The notes beneath the pieces were generated by a model, which saw nothing but the letters and a program-made list of their open reading frames with translations, had not been told where the DNA came from and made no database searches. The position numbers and the translations under genes were made by a program. DNA of 16,276 nucleotides from Thermoplasmata archaeon (GTDB taxonomy: Archaea > Thermoplasmatota > Thermoplasmata > Thermoplasmatales > Thermoplasmataceae), in contig JAJZKL010000001.1 of the NCBI GenBank assembly GCA_021804185.1, positions 1 to 16,276 of the forward strand, in the 5' to 3' direction. This document shows, one piece after another, positions 1 through 9,472 of the stretch (within the stretch, counting starts at the first letter, position 1; each line of letters opens with the position of its first letter).

Positions 1-15
1 GATGTCCAGAGAAAT

Positions 16-52
16 ACCCGGATTACCCGGATTAAAACTCACATGTTAGGGG
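16..52 (+). repeat. 37-bp direct repeat, copy 1 (operon start)
   Basis: The core ACCCGGATTACCCGGATTA (19 bases) is itself a tandem of ACCCGGATT. It is followed, after a variable stretch, by CATGTT(A/T)GGGG. The second copy is at 1774-1810 in the same orientation; the core is identical and the ATG falls at the same offset of 27. In this copy that ATG is the likely start codon of the first operon gene. The role (iteron, operator, recombination site) is unknown. Confidence 0.85.
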
Positions 53-291
53 ACGACATAAGGGAAATCATAGACGGACTGCTGAAGGACGACTATCATA
101 TTAATCCAAACGAAACGGGTTTTTCCATTGGCAATAAAGCATACAAGCTAGCAATCACCAAGCCCGCGGACGCTTCTAAACTTGAGGCACTCCAAACAAA
201 AATGAAAGCTCTTGGGTTTGAGCAGGTCAACCAGGGGACATACGGCCCGCTATTCTTTACGAGGTCCGTGAAGAAGGAGGAAAAACAATGA
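43..291 (+). CDS. Small hypothetical protein, first visible gene of element operon
   Basis: An 82-residue protein of unknown function. It is predicted mixed alpha/beta, with an acidic N-terminal helix (GDDIREIIDGLLKDD), a central strand-rich part and a helix-strand C-terminus ending in a charged KKEEKQ tail. The frame is open to the left edge of the window, so the true start could lie upstream. ATG at 43 is chosen because it falls inside the direct repeat at a fixed position, and an A/T-rich GAGAAATA at about 9-16 lies near the expected TATA distance. Its stop overlaps the next gene's ATG (ATGA at 288-291), so the two are translationally coupled. No catalytic motif is visible and I do not recognise the family. 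Confidence 0.65.
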   Translation: MLGDDIREIIDGLLKDDYHINPNETGFSIGNKAYKLAITKPADASKLEALQTKMKALGFEQVNQGTYGPLFFTRSVKKEEKQ

Positions 292-494
292 TCAGTTACG
301 CTGATCTCAAAGCACTGGAAGGCTTCCCGGTGCGTATAGAATACGAAACTGCAAGGAAGGCCATCCGTTCCAGGTCGGGAACGCTGAGAAGCATCGGCAT
401 TTCAAATGTCTCCATCGAGTCGTTGAGCGTTTCGGGCTTTTGTTATGCCATTCCAAAACGCTCGGGCAAGACGATCACGGAGTTGAAAATATGA
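288..494 (+). CDS. Small beta-rich protein, possible Sm-like fold
   Basis: A 68-residue protein. The start is well supported: a strong GGAGG (around 276-280) precedes the ATG, which overlaps the upstream stop as ATGA. The sequence reads as a short N-terminal helix (YADLKALE) followed by about five strands: VRIEYE, SGTLRSIG, NVSIESL, FCYAIPK and TITELKI. That layout resembles a small beta-barrel of the Sm type, and an Hfq-like protein is encoded four genes along in the same operon. There are no diagnostic Sm motif residues, so this is an inference from the strand pattern only. The C-terminus ends at an ATGA junction (491-494) with the next small gene. Confidence 0.65.
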   Translation: MISYADLKALEGFPVRIEYETARKAIRSRSGTLRSIGISNVSIESLSVSGFCYAIPKRSGKTITELKI

Positions 495-640
495 ATTTCG
501 GTAATACAGGGCCGGGGAATATTACCCCTAATCATTGCAGGAGCATGGGCAATTATCCCCTGAACCCTGACAAAGAGGGCTTAAATCGCAATATTGACGC
601 TTCGAATAAAAATGAGTATATAGGGAAGGGAAGAAAATGA
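491..640 (+). CDS. 49-residue hypothetical protein
   Basis: A short polar protein, rich in Asn and Gly (NFGNTGPGN near the N-terminus) and ending in a basic IGKGRK tail. It is likely disordered. The start is chosen because GGAG (479-482) lies 8 bases before an ATG that overlaps the previous stop as ATGA. Its own stop overlaps the next ATG in the same way (637-640). The double overlap is the main evidence that it is translated. No domain or motif is recognised and the function is unknown. Confidence 0.5.
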   Translation: MNFGNTGPGNITPNHCRSMGNYPLNPDKEGLNRNIDASNKNEYIGKGRK

Positions 641-747
641 GCGAAGAAGAAGGAAAAAAAGGAATAGTGCAGAAATTCCCGGTATTTTTGAGGGCAGTAC
701 TGCACGAGATAATAAGGAGAGTGAGAGAACATGCAAAGAGGAACTGA
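637..747 (+). CDS. 36-residue basic amphipathic peptide
   Basis: A very short open frame starting at an ATG that overlaps the previous stop (ATGA, 637-640), after a purine-rich AGGGAAGGGAAG site. The N-terminus is highly charged (MSEEEGKKG). The rest (about residues 12-36) can form one amphipathic helix with a hydrophobic face (FPVFLRAVLHEII) and a basic face ending RRVREHAKRN. Its 3' end overlaps the Hfq-like gene start at 731 by 17 bases in another frame. It could be a membrane- or nucleic-acid-binding peptide, or merely a translated coupling leader for the Hfq-like gene. Translation is inferred from the overlaps and not otherwise shown. Confidence 0.45.
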   Translation: MSEEEGKKGIVQKFPVFLRAVLHEIIRRVREHAKRN

Positions 748-1009
748 GAAAAGGGAAGGTTATCCACAGGACAGGGATAGCCGGAGAGAGGAAAGGCCAC
801 AGAGAGACCCTTCGCAAAACAGGTACTCAGTGCTGGACTGTCTCTCGAAGAAGGACGTTGGCAAGTCAGTAACCATGACGCTGATCAATGGCCGGACGGA
901 ATCAGGCATACTGAAGGATATTGGCATGTTCGACATCAAGCTGGAATTGCCAAACAGGAAGGAACTGATCCTGTTCAAGCATGCCCTGGTGAGTGTGAGC
1001 ATCCTGTGA
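731..1009 (+). CDS. Hfq/Sm-like RNA-binding protein of mobile element
   Basis: A 92-residue protein. Residues about 1-33 form a charged, disordered N-terminal extension. Residues about 34-92 match the Hfq/Sm core: a short helix (YSVLDCLSKKD), then VTMTLINGR..SGIL, which corresponds to Hfq 'VxIYLVNGxxLxGxI', then MFDIKLEL, then LFKHALVSVS, which corresponds to the Hfq Sm2 signature 'YKHAIS'. The conserved LxNG glycine and the KHA triad are present. Hfq forms ring oligomers that bind U-rich RNA and help sRNA/mRNA pairing, and archaeal Hfq-like proteins are known. Here it is the fifth gene of an element operon, so it may act on element or host RNAs. GGAG at 717-720 precedes the ATG, and its stop overlaps the next start as GTGA. 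Confidence 0.75.
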   Translation: MQRGTEKREGYPQDRDSRREERPQRDPSQNRYSVLDCLSKKDVGKSVTMTLINGRTESGILKDIGMFDIKLELPNRKELILFKHALVSVSIL

Positions 1010-1521
1010 GCTTTGAACTGAAGAACTTGGGGCCATACAGGATCGAAAGAACCGAGGACTACGATCAGTGTCCTTTCGATAAGTCATACTGTGAACTTAT
1101 CCGGGTCAAGGGGTCAAGACCGGGGCCTTCTTTTAATGTGGTGTCCCACGTCTACAAGTACAGCGAAACGGAACTTGCTCTTTACATGAAGGACAAAAAG
1201 AATCTATGGAGAGATCTGGGGAAATTGCTCAATGAGGACATAGACATTTCGGATGAAGAAATCATCCTGAGGTTTCCGATATCCAAATTCAGGGATATGG
1301 CCGGGATTGTTCCGCTCATGAGGAAGAGGGGATCCGGAAAGTTATCGCCTGAGTTGATAGCCCGAAGGGATGCCCTGAATGCCAGAAGACATACTGATAA
1401 AATAGGGCAAACTGCTTCAAAACCCCCAACGAAAGATGGAGAGGGTAATAATCATAACCTATCAGCGAGACTGGAAGACTTTACCGGAGAAGAGATTAAA
1501 AATGATGACGTACAACGGTAA
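1006..1521 (+). CDS. Hypothetical protein (171 aa), element operon
   Basis: I do not recognise this protein. It starts at GTG (1006), overlapping the Hfq-like stop as GTGA, with GGTGAG upstream. The N-terminal about 120 residues look folded and alpha/beta: LGPYRIER, then a Cys22/Cys29 pair in the segment DYDQCPFDKSYC, then strands (FNVVSHVYKY), a helix (LWRDLGKLL) and IILRFPISKF. Residues about 120-171 are polar and basic-then-acidic, probably disordered. Two cysteines alone do not make a zinc site. It is the largest protein of the operon and sits directly after the Hfq-like gene, so a partnership in RNA or DNA handling is possible but unproven. Confidence 0.7.
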   Translation: MSFELKNLGPYRIERTEDYDQCPFDKSYCELIRVKGSRPGPSFNVVSHVYKYSETELALYMKDKKNLWRDLGKLLNEDIDISDEEIILRFPISKFRDMAGIVPLMRKRGSGKLSPELIARRDALNARRHTDKIGQTASKPPTKDGEGNNHNLSARLEDFTGEEIKNDDVQR

Positions 1522-1773: not shown

Positions 1774-1810
1774 ACCCGGATTACCCGGATTACTTTCCCC
1801 ATGTTTGGGG
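1774..1810 (+). repeat. 37-bp direct repeat, copy 2 (operon end)
   Basis: The 19-base core is identical to the copy at 16-34, followed by CATGTTTGGGG. It lies in the gap between the convergent ends of the operon and the AT-hook gene. Here CCCCA-TGTT-TGGGG (1797-1810) also forms a small hairpin that copy 1 lacks. The ATG leads to only 15 codons, so this copy does not start a gene. It separates two oppositely oriented transcription units. Confidence 0.85.
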
Positions 1811-1822
1811 CCTTCTATCTTC

Positions 1823-2098
1823 TTAATTTGCATTTCGGGAAGCTTTAGGAGGTCTCCCGCGCTTGTTTCTTGCTGGCTTGTATGGTCTCAAAACGATGCG
1901 TATTTCACCCATTCCGTGGGCCCTTGCATATTCTCTAACAATCCTTGACCATTTAAGATCGGAAACATAAGCTGTCCTGTTTTCAAGCTGTAATGTTGCG
2001 TAATCGGAAAGCTTGAAATGTGGTACATTTTCTTCAGGTTCAAACCATGAAACATAATGCTTGCCGGTTTTGCTGGTCCACTCTTTTTCAGTTTCCAT
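1823..2098 (-). CDS. Small AT-hook-like DNA-binding protein
   Basis: A 91-residue protein from the ATG at 2098; a longer TTG start at 2113 is possible. The ATG is preferred because a TATA-like AGTATTTATT is centred about 26 bases upstream, giving a leaderless transcript. The body (METEKEWTSKTGKHYVSWFE onward) is strand-rich, with a helix SRIVREYARAHG. The C-terminus holds NKRGRPPKASRN, and KRGRPPK matches the core of an AT-hook, a minor-groove DNA-binding motif. It could be a chromatin-type or regulatory protein of the element, acting with the integrase upstream on the same strand. The fold of the body is not recognised. Confidence 0.65.
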   Translation of the reverse strand: METEKEWTSKTGKHYVSWFEPEENVPHFKLSDYATLQLENRTAYVSDLKWSRIVREYARAHGMGEIRIVLRPYKPARNKRGRPPKASRNAN

Positions 2099-2119
2099 AG
2101 ATGGATAAACCAATCCTGA

Positions 2120-2398: not shown

Positions 2399-3706
2399 TC
2401 ACGAAGGGAGCTTCATAACAATCTTTCCCGATGGCAATGTTGTAAACACTTCGTAGCCCTGATCCATGTATTTCTCTATCTCCTTTTCAGATACTATTCT
2501 TTGCCTAGTGCCATTTCCTGTTATGTTTCCAAGGATGCCATTAGTAACGAGCTTTTGAAATTCCTCATTGCTCATGTTCGCCAGATCAAGCTGATCTATC
2601 TTGTCCTGTGAATATCCCATAACCGAAGAGAGAAATTCTACCCTGAAGCCCTTCTTGACCTCGTCCTGTGTTATCTCTTTAGCTTCAGTTACCAGATATG
2701 TTTCGCATCTGTGATATGTCTCCCTCATTGCGTTTATTGTGTCTTCAGGCAGAACCTTGTTTGTGGAATACCTCGCCGAAATGTCCCCGGTGTGTCCCAT
2801 CCAGAACTCACGCCAATTATGCGATACTATGCCTTTAGCTTCAGCAACATCCATTGAACTGGCCCAGTAAACCCTAAGAGCATAGGGCCTGAAAGACAAG
2901 CCTGATTTTTTCATTGATCCTCTCACGTCCTTGAGAATAAACGTTGTAGCAAGGATGCCGGATCTCCTCAGGTTCGATCCCCTTGTGTCTGTTGTTATGA
3001 TCGGCGATTCAGGGCTTACGTTCTCTCCCTCTCTTATTCTTGCGTCTATGTAGTCTTTGACGTATTTTCCTGTTTGCTGAGGTATGAAAGTGAAATATCC
3101 ATGCCCCTTCTTTGAAAGCTGAACCTTCGACTGCCTGACTTTCAGCATAGCCGGAAAGGTAGTGTAATCTATGCCTTCAGTTCCAATCTTCAAGCCCTCA
3201 ATGTCCTTAATCCTCAAAGCGTCCGATCCGTCATAGTTGCCAAGCGTTTCAGGTCTTAATCCACTGAAGGCTAACAGTGAGATAATTGCCCGTCCCCTGA
3301 CTGTTGCATTCCTGAGCATTGAATCGATTTCGCCTTTCAGGGGTGGCCTTTCATCTATCAGTGTCGGGGATATGTTAGCTCCCTGTACCTTAACGCCTTT
3401 CAAGTTTGCATCCTGGCCATTGAACATGACCCAGGAAGCGATAACTTTCTTGAACCTGATAACATATGATCCGGCCCTGCCTTCTTTGCCCTGTTTGTAA
3501 ACAAAATCCATGAAGTCATTCTTCAGCTTTCCTGTATTGGCGTCCGCTACAATCTGCTCAGGACTTATCTTATTGGTCTTACAGTATAATCCCAGTGTCC
3601 TCAGATAAACGTCCCCGGTTATAAGCGATCCCTGCTGAAGGTTCCTGTACCATCGCATAACCTGCTCATTCTCTCTAAGGTCTCCGTGCTTTTCCTTGAA
3701 AGTCAT
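2399..3706 (-). CDS. Tyrosine recombinase (site-specific integrase)
   Basis: A tyrosine-recombinase integrase that would catalyse strand exchange between the element and a chromosomal attachment site. It is 435 residues from the ATG at 3706, chosen over GTG 3721 because TATA-like CATTATATAC lies about 25 bases upstream. The N-terminal about 120 residues are a core-binding SAM-like domain. The catalytic part shows, numbered from ATG 3706, Arg151 in LAFSGLRPETL, a candidate Lys in VRQSKVQL, Arg278 in RPYALRVYW (the usual box II His is Tyr), His305 in FWMGHTG and the nucleophile Tyr313 in SARYST. About 100 further C-terminal residues form a helical tail. The gene is intact and uninterrupted, and defines the left part of the window as an integrated element. 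Confidence 0.88.
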   Translation of the reverse strand: MTFKEKHGDLRENEQVMRWYRNLQQGSLITGDVYLRTLGLYCKTNKISPEQIVADANTGKLKNDFMDFVYKQGKEGRAGSYVIRFKKVIASWVMFNGQDANLKGVKVQGANISPTLIDERPPLKGEIDSMLRNATVRGRAIISLLAFSGLRPETLGNYDGSDALRIKDIEGLKIGTEGIDYTTFPAMLKVRQSKVQLSKKGHGYFTFIPQQTGKYVKDYIDARIREGENVSPESPIITTDTRGSNLRRSGILATTFILKDVRGSMKKSGLSFRPYALRVYWASSMDVAEAKGIVSHNWREFWMGHTGDISARYSTNKVLPEDTINAMRETYHRCETYLVTEAKEITQDEVKKGFRVEFLSSVMGYSQDKIDQLDLANMSNEEFQKLVTNGILGNITGNGTRQRIVSEKEIEKYMDQGYEVFTTLPSGKIVMKLPS

Positions 3707-3726
3707 AATAACACCATGCACAGATT

Positions 3727-3736
3727 GTATATAATG
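3727..3736 (-). promoter_or_regulatory. TATA-like promoter of integrase
   Basis: CATTATATAC on the minus strand is centred about 25 bases from the ATG at 3706. It supports a leaderless start there and argues against the in-frame GTG at 3721, which would be too close. Confidence 0.55.
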
Positions 3737-3930
3737 ATACTGTCAGGGCTCAAAATTGATGCTAATACCTCCGAGCCCGCTCTCAATAAAGTATAGGTTG
3801 TATTTCTGTACCCCCTGAATGCTGACTGTGCTTTATATACTCTGTGATCGCTTTCTGGAATATATTAATGTGCGAATAAAAGTAATCACTCCTTCAGATC
3901 ATCCATGTCCATAAGTGCCGAAAGACTGAG

Positions 3931-4273: not shown

Positions 4274-7200
4274 ATGAATGATTACGCCTGCACAAAGGGC
4301 AAACACATCACGCCTGTGTGGTTGACCGTAGCCATTATTCTTGTCATTTTTCTTATTTCTACGACGTCGGTTTCAGTAACTCACCAGAAATCGTACACTT
4401 CTCAACCAGTGAACGGAGCCGAACGACCTCATATCAACATAGTGACCGACGTATCCCATTCGCAATCGAGTTCCATGTCTCCCGTAAATACTAGCCGAAA
4501 AATGTCCGCTGATAATCAGAAAACCAGTGGTTTTTCACTTCCTCCTGCTAGATCCCTTAATCCCCAGTACGTGAATGAATCTGTTGATCCAACGGCGTAC
4601 TATTCCTACGAACCGGCACCGATGGGAATAGCAGATTACGGATTGAGCACAAGTTCAGGAGGCGGATACACCCCCTACTCGTATTTCACTTCCATGTTCC
4701 TGGGGAAGGCAGATATCTCATCCCTATCAACAATGACCTCTTCCGGGGACACCGAGATGACCTTCCAACTGAACGTGAACCTGGTTTTCTATGATTCTGG
4801 AATTGAATACGTGTACTGGATACAGGACGTCGCTTTTGTACAGACAGCTTCCCCGCAAGCCATAGAATTCATTGACAATGTGTGGAACATGTCCTCTCCA
4901 TCCGCCAGCATGCTTTCCTCCTCCATATCAGGAAATGGGACGGTCGCACAGTCAGGCAGCACGGGTTACTATTACTCCGTTGCCAGCAGCTATAATCTTC
5001 CGGGCAATGACATATACATAAACATGCCAACAACGGCTGATTTCAAGGTAATTTCCGGTATTAATGCAATGAACAGGCCGACTGTTGCATTTGAGTACAA
5101 TGATGGATATGGCTGGGTTACATATGACAATGCTGTCTTCAGCTTTGTATCCGACCTGACCTCAGATGGCGGATTCCTAGTTGACGGATCCAGCTATAAC
5201 CCATACGGCACTTTCTACGATGCTGAATTCATTCTTGGCGGGCCCGGTGGGGGCAGCGATACAATGGATCTCGGCTCTAACGTCAATATTCAGCTCGAAT
5301 ACTGGAATGGAAATAATTTCCAGATGATCACAAATGCCTTCAATTTCGGAAGTGACACCGCCGAGGGAATAGATAACGTGTATCCGAACGCAGACTACTA
5401 TTCCAGCACGGGAACCTTATTTTCCAACATAGGGGCTGGATACGGAAGCCTCGGTCAACTTTACAGCTACCAGAACGTAGGCATCCTGGATCTTACCACT
5501 CAACTGAATTCAGGGACGCTCTGGGTTGGCAGCGATCCGCACCAGTTTGCTGACAACTCGGTTATCCTGACCCTTGCTCCGGGTAGTTATGATCTCTATT
5601 TGTACAGTGCACAGGGTTCGGGCATTCTGCTATGGAGCACACAGGCAACTATAACCGCTGGGCAGACTCTTGCGATCAGTGCCCCTGTGATATACACAGT
5701 CACGTTCCGTGAATCAGGCCTGCCATCGGGTACGGAGTGGTCTGTAGACATGGGTTCTGACACTCTGTCAACGCAAGGCTCTACAGTACAGTATTACGCA
5801 ACGGATGGTTCATATCTGTTTACCGTGTCAGGCGTTCCAGGGTATGTGTCCAGCACGTATTCCGGGACCGTTACCGTAAATGGTGGAGACCAAACCCTTG
5901 AGGTGACTTGGACACAGGCTGTATACACAGTAACTTTTGCTGAATCCCGCCTTCCTCCCGGAACGGCGTGGTACGTGAACGTTACCGGCAACCAGCAATC
6001 CGGTCCCCTGACTGGGCAGTCATATTCAATAATGCTGGCAAATGGTAGTTACGCCTATTCAGCGTCGACCTCCGACAAGAATTATGACCCGTCATACGAA
6101 GGGGCATTCATTGTTAAGGGCAGTTCTCTAAATGAGGCCGTTACGTATCTTGAGGTAACATGTCCCGTTACATTCACGGAATCATCGCTTCCCCCGGGTG
6201 CAGGATGGTATGTCAATATAACCGGCCAGAACTCATCGAGCCTGATCACCATGCAGTCGTACACTGCTCAGCTGATGAATGGAACCTATTCCTTCACCGT
6301 AGCAACCTCAGACAGGATTTACACGCCTTCCCAGTATTCAGGGACTGTGGCAGTCAATGGAGCGGCAGTTTCCGTTCAGATAACCTTCAGCAAGGTAATT
6401 TACAGCATAACGTTTTCGGAGACTGGATTGCCCTCCAGCGCACCGTGGTGGGTGAACCTTTCCGGCCAGCAGTCTTCCGGGCCAATATACGCTTCGCTCT
6501 ATTCCACTGGGGTGGTAAATGGGACATACGCATACAGCATATCAACATCGGACAAAGAATACGCACCAGCGAATTACGAGGCATCATTGACGGTAAATGG
6601 GCCGCCAGAATCACAGCAGAATATCGTATTCGAGATTCAGACATTCTCGGTTGTATTTGTTGAAACGGGCCTAGGTGAAGGGACATGGTACGTTAACATG
6701 TCGGGGATTTTCGAGTCGGCACTCGCCGGGTCTGCAATGACGTATGTACTGCCGAACGGTACGTACTCATATACAGTTTCTACATCCAACAGGGTATTTC
6801 ACCCATCTTTCCACGCAGGATCATTTAGCGTGAGAGGAGCAGCCTCCCTGTTGATCACATTTGAAAAGACCCTGTATTCTGTGGAGTTCTCGGAGACCGG
6901 CCTTCCATCAAATGGGGTCTGGTACGTCAACGTTACCGGTTTCCTATCCTCAGCCCCTATTTCCGGCACTTTCCATGCGGAATACCTGACCAATGGATCA
7001 TACTCGTACGGAATTTCAACAGCCAACAAGGTTTACGGTGCAATATACAATGGCACATTTACGGTACAGGGGACTTCCGTTATGGTTAACGTGACATTCT
7101 CCAGGGTTGTTTACAACGTGACTTTTGTTGAATCTGGCTTGCCTGTTGGCATTGAATGGTACGTAAACATAAGCGGCATTGGGCCTTCCGGACCGATAAT

Positions 7201-8134
7201 TACTGCGACATACAGTGCCAAGCTTTCCAATCAAAGCTATGAATATTATATTCAGACTTCCGATAAAACATTCCGACCTCTATACAAGAATTCATTGTCT
7301 GTAAATGGCACCCCGGTAAATGAGCAGATAAGTTTTTTAGAGATTACACATTCAGTGGCATTCTCCCAATCTGGGCTGCCGGCCGGTGCAAAATGGTTCG
7401 TAAATCTATCCAATGGTCAGTCATTCTCATCCACAACAGGTACGTTATCAATCTCGGAACCCAATGGGACATATTCATATACAATTGCAACCTCAGACAA
7501 GATCTATTCTCTGTCAACGCCTTTATTTCCTTTCACTGTCAATGGAGCTGCGGTATCTAAAGGCATAACATTCAGTGAGGTTCAGTATACTGCAATATTC
7601 GCCGAATCTGGACTACCATCAGGAACAGAATGGTATATTAACGGTACTGGGTTATTAGGTCACGAGGCATCACCAACAAACACCACATTCAGTCTTGCAA
7701 ACGGAACCTATACGTTCACGGTAACCAATCTCAGCAGCTATTACGCAACTAGGTCTCATTTCACAGTTACTGTTAATGGAAATAATGTGACGGAAACAGT
7801 CGATTACCTTCACTGGCTTTACATAACAGGAACGATATCTCCAAACAGTGTTTCACTCACAATTAACGGACAAGCAGTAGCTATTTCTCCGTCAGGATCA
7901 TTTAACGTTTCAGTAGCAAACGGATCCTATGATCTCGTGGCTTCTGAATCTGGATACCACTCATATTACAACAACTTCACGCTGAATCATGGAAGCACAA
8001 AGAATCTGACCATAAGCCTAAAAGCTGTGTCGAAACCATCAAGAATATCAAGCACAGAGATATATGCAATCATAGGGGCAATTATGGCGATTGTCGTAAT
8101 TGCAGGTGTCGTAATGGCAATAAGGAGAAGGTAA
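4274..8134 (+). CDS. Thermopsin-family surface protease with nine repeats
   Basis: A 1286-residue exported protein of the thermopsin family (peptidase A5), acid proteases of acidophilic archaea. In order: an N-terminal signal/anchor (about 14-36, LTVAIILVIFLIS); a Ser/Thr-rich linker; the thermopsin domain (about 100-400) with EPAPMGIADYGLS, TFQLNVNLVFYD, WIQDV, FYDAEFILGGPGGGSDT and NFGSDTAEGI; nine repeats (474-1181) each opening like YxVxFxESGLPxGxxWYVN and holding NGTYxYxxxTSDK; a PEGA-like module (about 1182-1250); and a C-terminal membrane helix (about 1263-1283) ending RRR. It is probably anchored and faces outward to an acidic medium. Many N-x-S/T sites suggest heavy glycosylation. 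The catalytic residues of the family are not firmly known to me, so activity is inferred. The start is supported by a TATA box 27 bases upstream. Confidence 0.88.
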   Translation: MNDYACTKGKHITPVWLTVAIILVIFLISTTSVSVTHQKSYTSQPVNGAERPHINIVTDVSHSQSSSMSPVNTSRKMSADNQKTSGFSLPPARSLNPQYVNESVDPTAYYSYEPAPMGIADYGLSTSSGGGYTPYSYFTSMFLGKADISSLSTMTSSGDTEMTFQLNVNLVFYDSGIEYVYWIQDVAFVQTASPQAIEFIDNVWNMSSPSASMLSSSISGNGTVAQSGSTGYYYSVASSYNLPGNDIYINMPTTADFKVISGINAMNRPTVAFEYNDGYGWVTYDNAVFSFVSDLTSDGGFLVDGSSYNPYGTFYDAEFILGGPGGGSDTMDLGSNVNIQLEYWNGNNFQMITNAFNFGSDTAEGIDNVYPNADYYSSTGTLFSNIGAGYGSLGQLYSYQNVGILDLTTQLNSGTLWVGSDPHQFADNSVILTLAPGSYDLYLYSAQGSGILLWSTQATITAGQTLAISAPVIYTVTFRESGLPSGTEWSVDMGSDTLSTQGSTVQYYATDGSYLFTVSGVPGYVSSTYSGTVTVNGGDQTLEVTWTQAVYTVTFAESRLPPGTAWYVNVTGNQQSGPLTGQSYSIMLANGSYAYSASTSDKNYDPSYEGAFIVKGSSLNEAVTYLEVTCPVTFTESSLPPGAGWYVNITGQNSSSLITMQSYTAQLMNGTYSFTVATSDRIYTPSQYSGTVAVNGAAVSVQITFSKVIYSITFSETGLPSSAPWWVNLSGQQSSGPIYASLYSTGVVNGTYAYSISTSDKEYAPANYEASLTVNGPPESQQNIVFEIQTFSVVFVETGLGEGTWYVNMSGIFESALAGSAMTYVLPNGTYSYTVSTSNRVFHPSFHAGSFSVRGAASLLITFEKTLYSVEFSETGLPSNGVWYVNVTGFLSSAPISGTFHAEYLTNGSYSYGISTANKVYGAIYNGTFTVQGTSVMVNVTFSRVVYNVTFVESGLPVGIEWYVNISGIGPSGPIITATYSAKLSNQSYEYYIQTSDKTFRPLYKNSLSVNGTPVNEQISFLEITHSVAFSQSGLPAGAKWFVNLSNGQSFSSTTGTLSISEPNGTYSYTIATSDKIYSLSTPLFPFTVNGAAVSKGITFSEVQYTAIFAESGLPSGTEWYINGTGLLGHEASPTNTTFSLANGTYTFTVTNLSSYYATRSHFTVTVNGNNVTETVDYLHWLYITGTISPNSVSLTINGQAVAISPSGSFNVSVANGSYDLVASESGYHSYYNNFTLNHGSTKNLTISLKAVSKPSRISSTEIYAIIGAIMAIVVIAGVVMAIRRR
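5693..7816 (+). repeat. Nine tandem 77-81-residue surface repeats
   Basis: Unit starts are at residues 474, 551, 630, 710, 791, 868, 947, 1026 and 1105 of the thermopsin protein. Each has a beta-sandwich-like pattern: hydrophobic strand, ESGLP turn, W(Y/F)VN, NG(T/S)Y, then xVNG near the end. The units differ strongly at DNA level, so the array is old and not a recent expansion. Unit 1 lacks the TSDK motif and unit 5 has a shortened GLGEGTW turn. They probably act as a stalk or as glycan/cell-wall contacts. Confidence 0.85.
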
Positions 8135-8812: not shown

Positions 8813-9313
8813 TCACTGTTGGTAAGCCGATGCAATAATCCCGCTTGACGCAGTATCAATGAAGGCTATCCTCGTTACGAACTGATGTGCATTGTTTTCC
8901 TTTATGGATATGAAATCCAGAGGGGAGAACGTCGTACTACCACTACCCTTTGTAAGGTTGGCCACTATGTGTTTCGTCAAATTCGTACCATGGGGGCCTA
9001 TGCTCAATAATGAAACTGTTGTTATGTTGCCGGTGTTAAGCGTGACCATCAACCTGACGTACGAAAGCGATATATTTCCCGAGACGGATTCTATGTACAC
9101 GATATAACTACCAGTCCCTGTTCCATTTGTTGCTAACTTGGTCATGTTGACCACGGCAATGTTGGCTTGAGGCGTCAGGGCCGGGGCGTTGGAAAAGTAT
9201 CCTCCGACGATTGAATACAGCGTTGACGCGAGGGTCACGGTTATGGCGATAAGCAAAATTGTCGCTATGATCGGTGATACTGCATTATCATTCCTTAATA
9301 CTACTTCCTTCAT
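8813..9313 (-). CDS. Archaeal type IV pilin-like protein
   Basis: A 167-residue protein with the N-terminal signature of archaeal type IV pilins: a short charged leader (MKEVVLRND), then NAVSPIIATILLIAITVTLA, a hydrophobic helix preceded by the 'AVSPIIA' motif (Pilin_N type). The leader would be cut by a prepilin-like peptidase and the helix would form the filament core or anchor. The rest is a Thr/Ser/Gly-rich beta domain with several N-x-T sequons (NGTG, NLTK), typical of glycosylated surface pilins. ATG at 9313 is chosen; a TATA-like ACATATAG at about 9344-9352 would place transcription start near an alternative in-frame TTG at 9322. Assembly genes are not in the window. Confidence 0.8.
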   Translation of the reverse strand: MKEVVLRNDNAVSPIIATILLIAITVTLASTLYSIVGGYFSNAPALTPQANIAVVNMTKLATNGTGTGSYIVYIESVSGNISLSYVRLMVTLNTGNITTVSLLSIGPHGTNLTKHIVANLTKGSGSTTFSPLDFISIKENNAHQFVTRIAFIDTASSGIIASAYQQ

Positions 9314-9472
9314 GTAGGTCAATATGTAAACACCTGTGTAGCTCTATATGTTTTAGGCGGTCAGCATGATTTTCCTTCGCGTGTTCATGATGCTGGTATT
9401 GCTGGTTGAAATTTCATTCCTGGCATGCACTTTATGATCTTATCAAGAAAAATTATCGGGATGGCGAAATTA

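Follow-up and report, generated by a model that had tools for sequence, protein, structure and literature searches.

Hfq-like proteins encoded on archaeal plasmids have been described before. A Thermococcus plasmid study of 2013 places zinc-finger/Hfq-like proteins right after helicase genes; the plasmids with Hfq-like proteins are pCIR10, pP12-1, and pIRI48 (Thermococcales) and pMETVU01, pFS01, and ECE1/ECE2 (Methanocaldococcus), and the authors raise the recruitment of DNA through the zinc finger (PMC3543421, in the accessible part of that article). Within the sequence records, the hfq-like gene comes immediately after a helicase gene in pCIR10, pP12-1, pIRI48, and pMETVU01, is separated by about 0.5 kb from a DEAD/DEAH helicase gene in ECE1, stands two small genes after MCM in pFS01, and follows a hypothetical gene in ECE2. 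On a plasmid of Aeromonas jandaei, hfq is followed directly by a DNA helicase gene (L161:914-2210). Borg elements also carry Sm/Hfq proteins, some with an N-terminal repeat-bearing extension (PMC9879509, accessible part). Among the open-licence papers, no report was found of an hfq-like gene in Thermoplasmata elements, and the word Hfq is absent from the main text of a 2025 genomic-island study of acidophilic archaea. Because helicase-adjacent plasmid genes of this type are already published, the gene described below has known predecessors; what is added to the plasmid genes known from PMC3543421, as far as its accessible part describes them, is a set of integrated elements with exchangeable partner genes.

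The window, that is, the whole stretch of DNA analysed here, consists of 16,276 nucleotides at the start of contig JAJZKL010000001.1 from a Thermoplasmata archaeon. The genes run in the order Rep end, A3 protein, microprotein, hfq, D165, and then the convergent integrase, and parts of this order are kept in many relatives. The features are listed below.

Features of the window, with positions counted from its first nucleotide
Feature	Position	Strand	Remarks
Primase-helicase (Rep), C-terminal end	1..291	+	33% identity over 96 aa to L049 protein, residues 715-803 (of 803)
37-nt direct repeat, copy 1	16..52	+	two CCCGGATTA units; repeat search
Small A3-family protein, possible second Sm-like barrel	288..494	+	4-nt overlap with Rep stop
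36-aa basic microprotein ORF	637..747	+	from the sequence; overlaps hfq start
hfq-like gene	731..1009	+	92 aa, ATG; charged N-terminal tail ~1-31, Sm core ~44-90; profile matches
D165 protein	1006..1521	+	171 aa, GTG; 4-nt overlap with hfq stop; 12-locus BLAST family
37-nt direct repeat, copy 2	1774..1810	+	doubled CCCGGATTA, 81% identical to copy 1; repeat search
96-aa ORF, KRGRPPK tail	1823..2113	-	no significant family match
Tyrosine-recombinase-type integrase, INT-A family	2399..3721	-	440 aa; convergent; 15-locus family
Predicted right attachment core AATACCTCCGAGCCCGCTC	3764..3782	.	resembles cores in L047, L048, L074
Thermopsin gene	4274-8134		PF05317, 4.5e-81; past attachment core

The ATG of the hfq-like gene is preceded within a few bases by TAAGGAG. 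The pattern on which the original prediction was based is present in the translation, with L51-I-N-G54, a glycine past the next strand (G59), and F82-K-H-A-L-V-S88, and the predicted charged N-terminal extension is likewise borne out, 47% of residues 1-43 being charged. Residues 1-31 contain neither Cys nor His, and this charged tail stands in place of a C2H2 zinc finger. The DNA for the tail at window 754-808 matches L059:101-155 with 92.7% identity over 55 nt, but the Sm cores are different, which suggests an exchange of tail DNA inside the gene. Look-alikes of the microprotein, recognized by eye, overlap the hfq start in L047, L048, L055, L057, L063, and L068, and one in L049 lies further upstream of hfq.

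Examined alone, the window protein gives marginal matches to the Hfq models, PF17209 of Pfam (E=0.0034, 17.4 bits) being below its cut-off of 27 and TIGR02383 of NCBIfam (E=4.3e-4, 20.1 bits) below 61.7, so that no curated cut-off is reached. The three top PDB chains for the single sequence are all Hfqs (E 0.11-0.58). The single sequence, searched against 5.8 billion proteins, returned three clusters, among them the window's own and one named 'sRNA-binding regulator protein Hfq' in its source, and a family profile retrieved 83 proteins at E<=0.001 from the same collection, including those of Picrophilus and Acidiplasma. Weak matches by tblastn against plasmids and phages included bacterial Hfqs. 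A profile designated A2 was built from 35 family members, leaving out the truncated L059 and L070, which is identical to L068. Among these 35, PF17209 is matched at E<=1 by 30 (best 3.7e-7), TIGR02383 by 31 (best 4.7e-7), and Pfam LSM by 17 (best 6.9e-4). The top PDB matches of A2 are the entries of the Methanocaldococcus jannaschii Hfq-like protein MJ1435 (PDB 2qtx, 5dy9), with E values of 1.6e-8, the best solved-structure match of the family, and 1.1e-7; bacterial Hfqs follow from 8.5e-6, and the first LSm appears only at 0.086. The Hfq/Sm identity proposed in the original prediction, against which the lack of any significant Sm-family profile match was to count, thus withstood this search; of the profile comparison with Hfq and LSM that it had put forward as a check, the part at the family level gave significant Hfq matches, and the part for the window protein alone stayed under the cut-offs. 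Chance is excluded for the family, not for the single window sequence.

The A2 profile is also selective. Out of 247 ORFs in 10 plasmid records, of which three bacterial ones were chosen through tblastn matches of family members and seven archaeal ones were taken from PMC3543421, A2 picked up 10 ORFs at E<=10, all of Hfq type and no others; six are annotated as Hfq and four are called Hfq-like in the accessible part of that article. All seven archaeal plasmid proteins were recovered, with E values from 1.1e-12 to 6.1e-5. In hhalign comparisons, A2 aligned with the three bacterial Hfqs (96.9%, 2e-10) over 56 columns that span Sm1 and Sm2, and with the seven Thermococcales/Methanocaldococcus plasmid proteins at 95.4% (1.7e-8). 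A divergent SmAP/LSm copy taken from the host, instead of an Hfq-type protein, would agree with the alignment of A2 to five host-type SmAPs (94.4%, 8.5e-8) and with the LSM matches of 17 members, but this alignment is limited to 34 columns, Sm1 only, whereas the Hfq alignments cover both motifs, and PDB LSm chains score no better than 0.086. Moreover, the Sm2 of the family is mostly K-[HSGQ]-[ASG]-I where SmAP/LSm (PF01423) has I/L-R-G, and neither the I/L-R-G Sm2 nor whole-fold homology to SmAP/LSm was found in the family. A host-derived SmAP copy is accordingly considered very improbable. Since the family aligns with bacterial and plasmid Hfqs and over a shorter stretch with SmAPs, the product of 731-1009 is classified, from its sequence relationships, as an Sm-fold protein of the Hfq branch, nearer to Hfq than to SmAP.

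Relatives were detected at E<=1e-3 in 32 of the 117 genomes of the host's order, each best match being at or below 2.1e-11. The Hfq-like gene is not a one-off; it has relatives in many similar elements, and with related genes in about a quarter of the order's genomes it has the appearance of a core component of the element. In a draw of 400 genomes from the class, a three-row profile gave 25 at E<=0.01, two of them (G048 and G053) with stop-ridden matches only that were not seen again with A2; A2 itself gave 28 at E<=1e-3, of which 25 were at <=2.1e-12, all 25 within the order. The PF17209 cut-off was exceeded by a match in one of the 400. The phylum draw yielded 17 of 389 genomes, consisting of 11 in the order, five weak Sm1-only matches, and G483, a genome outside the order in which Rep and integrase genes stand beside the hfq-like gene. 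The weak PF17209 matches that were inspected, those at L039, L042, and L079-L081, proved to be ordinary SmAPs and were not counted as family. In the nearest host relatives, the gene is absent from G001 as searched with A2 and from G002 as searched with the A1 profile only; both are MAGs, the contigs of which do not reach the insertion site. The hfq-like gene coexists with host SmAPs: a canonical SmAP was present in each of the 25 genomes checked, namely 23 carriers, G001, and G002, and two SmAPs were present in 23 of the 25.

The original prediction placed the gene in an integrated mobile element, and the tRNA-derived repeats of relatives, the homology that ends in the attachment core, and the neighbouring Rep and integrase genes all agree with this placement. 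Homology between the window and L074 spans 2399-3779 and ends inside a similar core, supporting the right side of a predicted integrated element, the left end of which would lie beyond the window. With one mismatch allowed, the core pattern was found nowhere in G001 and G002 and twice in G311, in neither case within a tRNA, and the target tRNA of the window was not found in these searches. Six related elements have tRNA-derived repeats: Pro, 21 bp (L044 and L045); Trp, 21 bp (L056); Arg, at least 60 bp (L047, where an N-gap adjoins the second copy near the right end); Leu, 17 bp (L067); and Ser, a short one of 14 bp (L065). The other tRNA-bearing loci showed no such repeat. In four of the 15 loci of the INT-A family (L044, L045, L047, and L056), the repeat is located just upstream of the integrase gene. 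The window integrase matches XerA_Arch weakly (8e-5, 22.3 bits, cut-off 220), and a GH...Y pattern read by eye is taken by us to be the tyrosine recombinase motif.

The thermopsin region beyond the core is read as host chromosome. From 8419 onward the window is about 90% identical to L001 and L002, the loci of both nearest host relatives, the alignable parts of which start at this position, at their contig ends. A protein with an archaeal type IV pilin N-terminal domain is encoded at 8813-9322 (PF07790, 5.3e-11).

Among 50 hfq loci, 38 carry Rep/Prim-Pol or an integrase within the sequence retrieved (Rep/Prim-Pol at 26, an integrase at 32, both at 20); neither was present at the other 12, several, not all, of which are at contig ends. 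D165 or a Cys-rich gene occurs at 33 loci, directly downstream of hfq in 27, and only L059 and L175 have no marker, whereas among 20 host SmAP loci, comparable in length, a single one has any marker, an integrase. Since the neighbour-marker profiles were built from the same loci, the counts for S56, D165, and Cys are descriptive; the Prim-Pol, INT-B, and Rep markers have support from outside these loci. The Rep identity agrees with a match of the A4 profile to PDB 7ola, 'DNA primase' (2.1e-20), with a Prim-Pol match (PF09250, 4.8e-25), and with matches of two of three Rep proteins to the PHROG DNA primase (6.3e-18, that of the 803-aa L049 protein, and 1e-34), the third, from L045, having none; the Rep profile gave no score for the window fragment 1-291. 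D165 lies just 3' of hfq in all 12 loci of its family, the twelfth (L078) being recognized through profile markers, and a protein designated c89 follows hfq in some loci. Single-sequence and pattern scans, which reach close relatives only, detected no relatives of the hfq gene in IMG/VR and GTDB species genomes and none of the integrase and D165 in IMG/VR; as far as close relatives are concerned, there is thus no sign of a virus. No Rfam RNA match was found in the window.

Several smaller features of these loci deserve description. The A3 family has 8 to 10 members near hfq, and the 288-494 protein may be a second Sm/SH3-like barrel: its alignment as an Sm barrel (hhalign p=0.0017, probability 15%) is suggestive and the best among the profile pairs compared, its other Sm/Hfq alignments were below 1%, and no useful match came from PDB or Pfam. 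The two 37-nt repeats flank most of the visible part of the operon and are a candidate origin or binding site; their 18-nt doubled unit is absent from 49 other element loci at up to two mismatches. Small proteins encoded after Rep at L044:8770-9054, L051:7849-8091, and L053:9975-10247 are similar by eye to the C-terminal domain of GINS, and Pfam Gins51_C matched two of the three (E 0.11-0.18).

Comparison of loci points to hfq plus its partner as a module. L044 and L045 are inserted at the same tRNA-Pro, and their left flanks are syntenic (80%); the integrases (86%) and hfq regions (75%) correspond, but the Rep cores give no alignment, and of the two genes 3' of hfq one encodes D165 and the other Cys148. 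A single genome contains both L069 and L072, which have in common 1354 nt including hfq (84%) and shorter pieces, and their Rep clusters differ. At L174:3133-3855, a single ORF encodes an Hfq domain (7e-14) together with a Cys178 domain (4e-36; search among 24 ORFs), for which a frameshift error is possible. An hfq that persists through an exchange of Rep would agree with a generic role no less than with a Rep-specific one.

For the conserved residues, positions are given in what we take to be E. coli Hfq numbering, with Q41, F42, K56, and H57 assumed to form the proximal RNA uridine site and Y25, I30, and Q33 the distal A-R-N site. Across 36 sequences, the truncated L059 being left out, Lys56, Gly34, and an aromatic residue at position 42 (Tyr or Phe) are each present in all 36, Asn28 in 31, Gln41 in 19, and His57 in 15; the window protein has M, F, K, and H at 41, 42, 56, and 57. 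At the distal face, Tyr25 and Ile30 are found in none and Gln33 in two, position 30 being Arg or Lys in 30. Because these distal residues are missing, sRNA-mRNA matching on two faces as in E. coli is not expected, and RNA would be bound via the proximal face, without a distal A-rich site. The label of RNA chaperone given in the original prediction would fit this conservation. The relatives are under selection: dN/dS was 0.078-0.241 in 23 of 27 pairs and saturated in four, rough values from pairs 60%-100% identical, many with dS >1. The set consists of relatives without the window, no pair of which passed the 60% filter; its two nearest relatives are available as protein only.

From its position 3' of the primase-helicase gene and the 4-nt coupling to the next gene, hfq would most likely be expressed together with the replication operon. 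The product probably forms a six-membered ring, which would bind short U-rich RNA by its proximal face (Lys83, Phe67, and His84 in the window protein) and, with a partner encoded by the element (D165 here, Cys-rich proteins elsewhere), would control the replication transcripts of the element itself and through them its copy number. For this reading as a whole, an element-encoded Hfq-branch ring as a backbone gene of tRNA-integrated, plasmid-like Thermoplasmata elements, acting through U-rich RNA in control of their own replication, we see about an even chance.

Two other roles have to be weighed against it. The residues conserved best belong to the RNA uridine site of Hfq, and a near-identical hfq module goes with different Reps in L069 and L072; both observations argue against a replication accessory on DNA, a ring that would assist the primase-helicase in handling ssDNA or primers at the replication fork or the origin and would not act on mRNA. 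Such an accessory is nevertheless suggested by the adjoining Rep in many family loci, by the helicase-gene neighbour in pCIR10, pP12-1, pIRI48, pMETVU01, and one Aeromonas plasmid, and by the zinc-finger recruitment of DNA raised in PMC3543421 (accessible part), some partners here being Cys-rich; we regard it as rather doubtful. The ring could also be directed at the host, binding host RNAs or competing with host SmAPs and so shifting expression in favour of the element, as might be thought from the canonical SmAPs already present in the hosts and from the charged tail, which varies and looks exchangeable between the window and L059; the placement among replication genes and the D165 overlap speak instead for the element's own cycle, and a host-directed role is judged unlikely.

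In a wider sense, Hfq-type rings could be general companions, assembled repeatedly, of the replicative helicases found on plasmid-like elements of archaea and of some bacteria; together with a partner that is Cys-rich or has a zinc finger, either fused to them or as a separate protein, these rings would provide an RNA/DNA platform for replication control, Thermoplasmata having Hfq in such elements only and SmAPs in the host; this generalization is offered as a tentative possibility. The loci suggest that in several archaeal groups Hfq is connected with plasmid replication, and they offer a case in which the use of RNA-binding rings by mobile elements can be tested. According to the accessible part of a 2023 survey of archaeal Lsm proteins, Hfq is found in bacteria and one archaeon species; against this stand the 32 of 117 genomes of one order, in which the Hfq-type gene is mostly located beside replication and integration genes.

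Among the known systems, bacterial Hfq (PF17209) is similar in Sm1 and in an Sm2 of K-H-A-I type, but the family described here is without the distal-face residues and has a long and variable N-terminal tail. MJ1435, presumably a chromosomal gene product, is a 71-residue chain without the long charged tail. The Sm/Hfq proteins of Borgs, compared by description only, are likewise encoded by elements, these being giant and linear and belonging to methane-oxidising archaea (PMC9879509, accessible part). The plasmid proteins of the Thermococcus study share the Hfq-type Sm core, the setting in an archaeal mobile element, and the helicase-gene neighbour; as described in the accessible part of the article, theirs carry an N-terminal C2H2 finger (except that of pIRI48) and reside on free plasmids, whereas those of Thermoplasmata are found in integrated elements with Prim-Pol or primase-helicase genes, and combine a charged tail with separate, exchangeable partner genes (PMC3543421).
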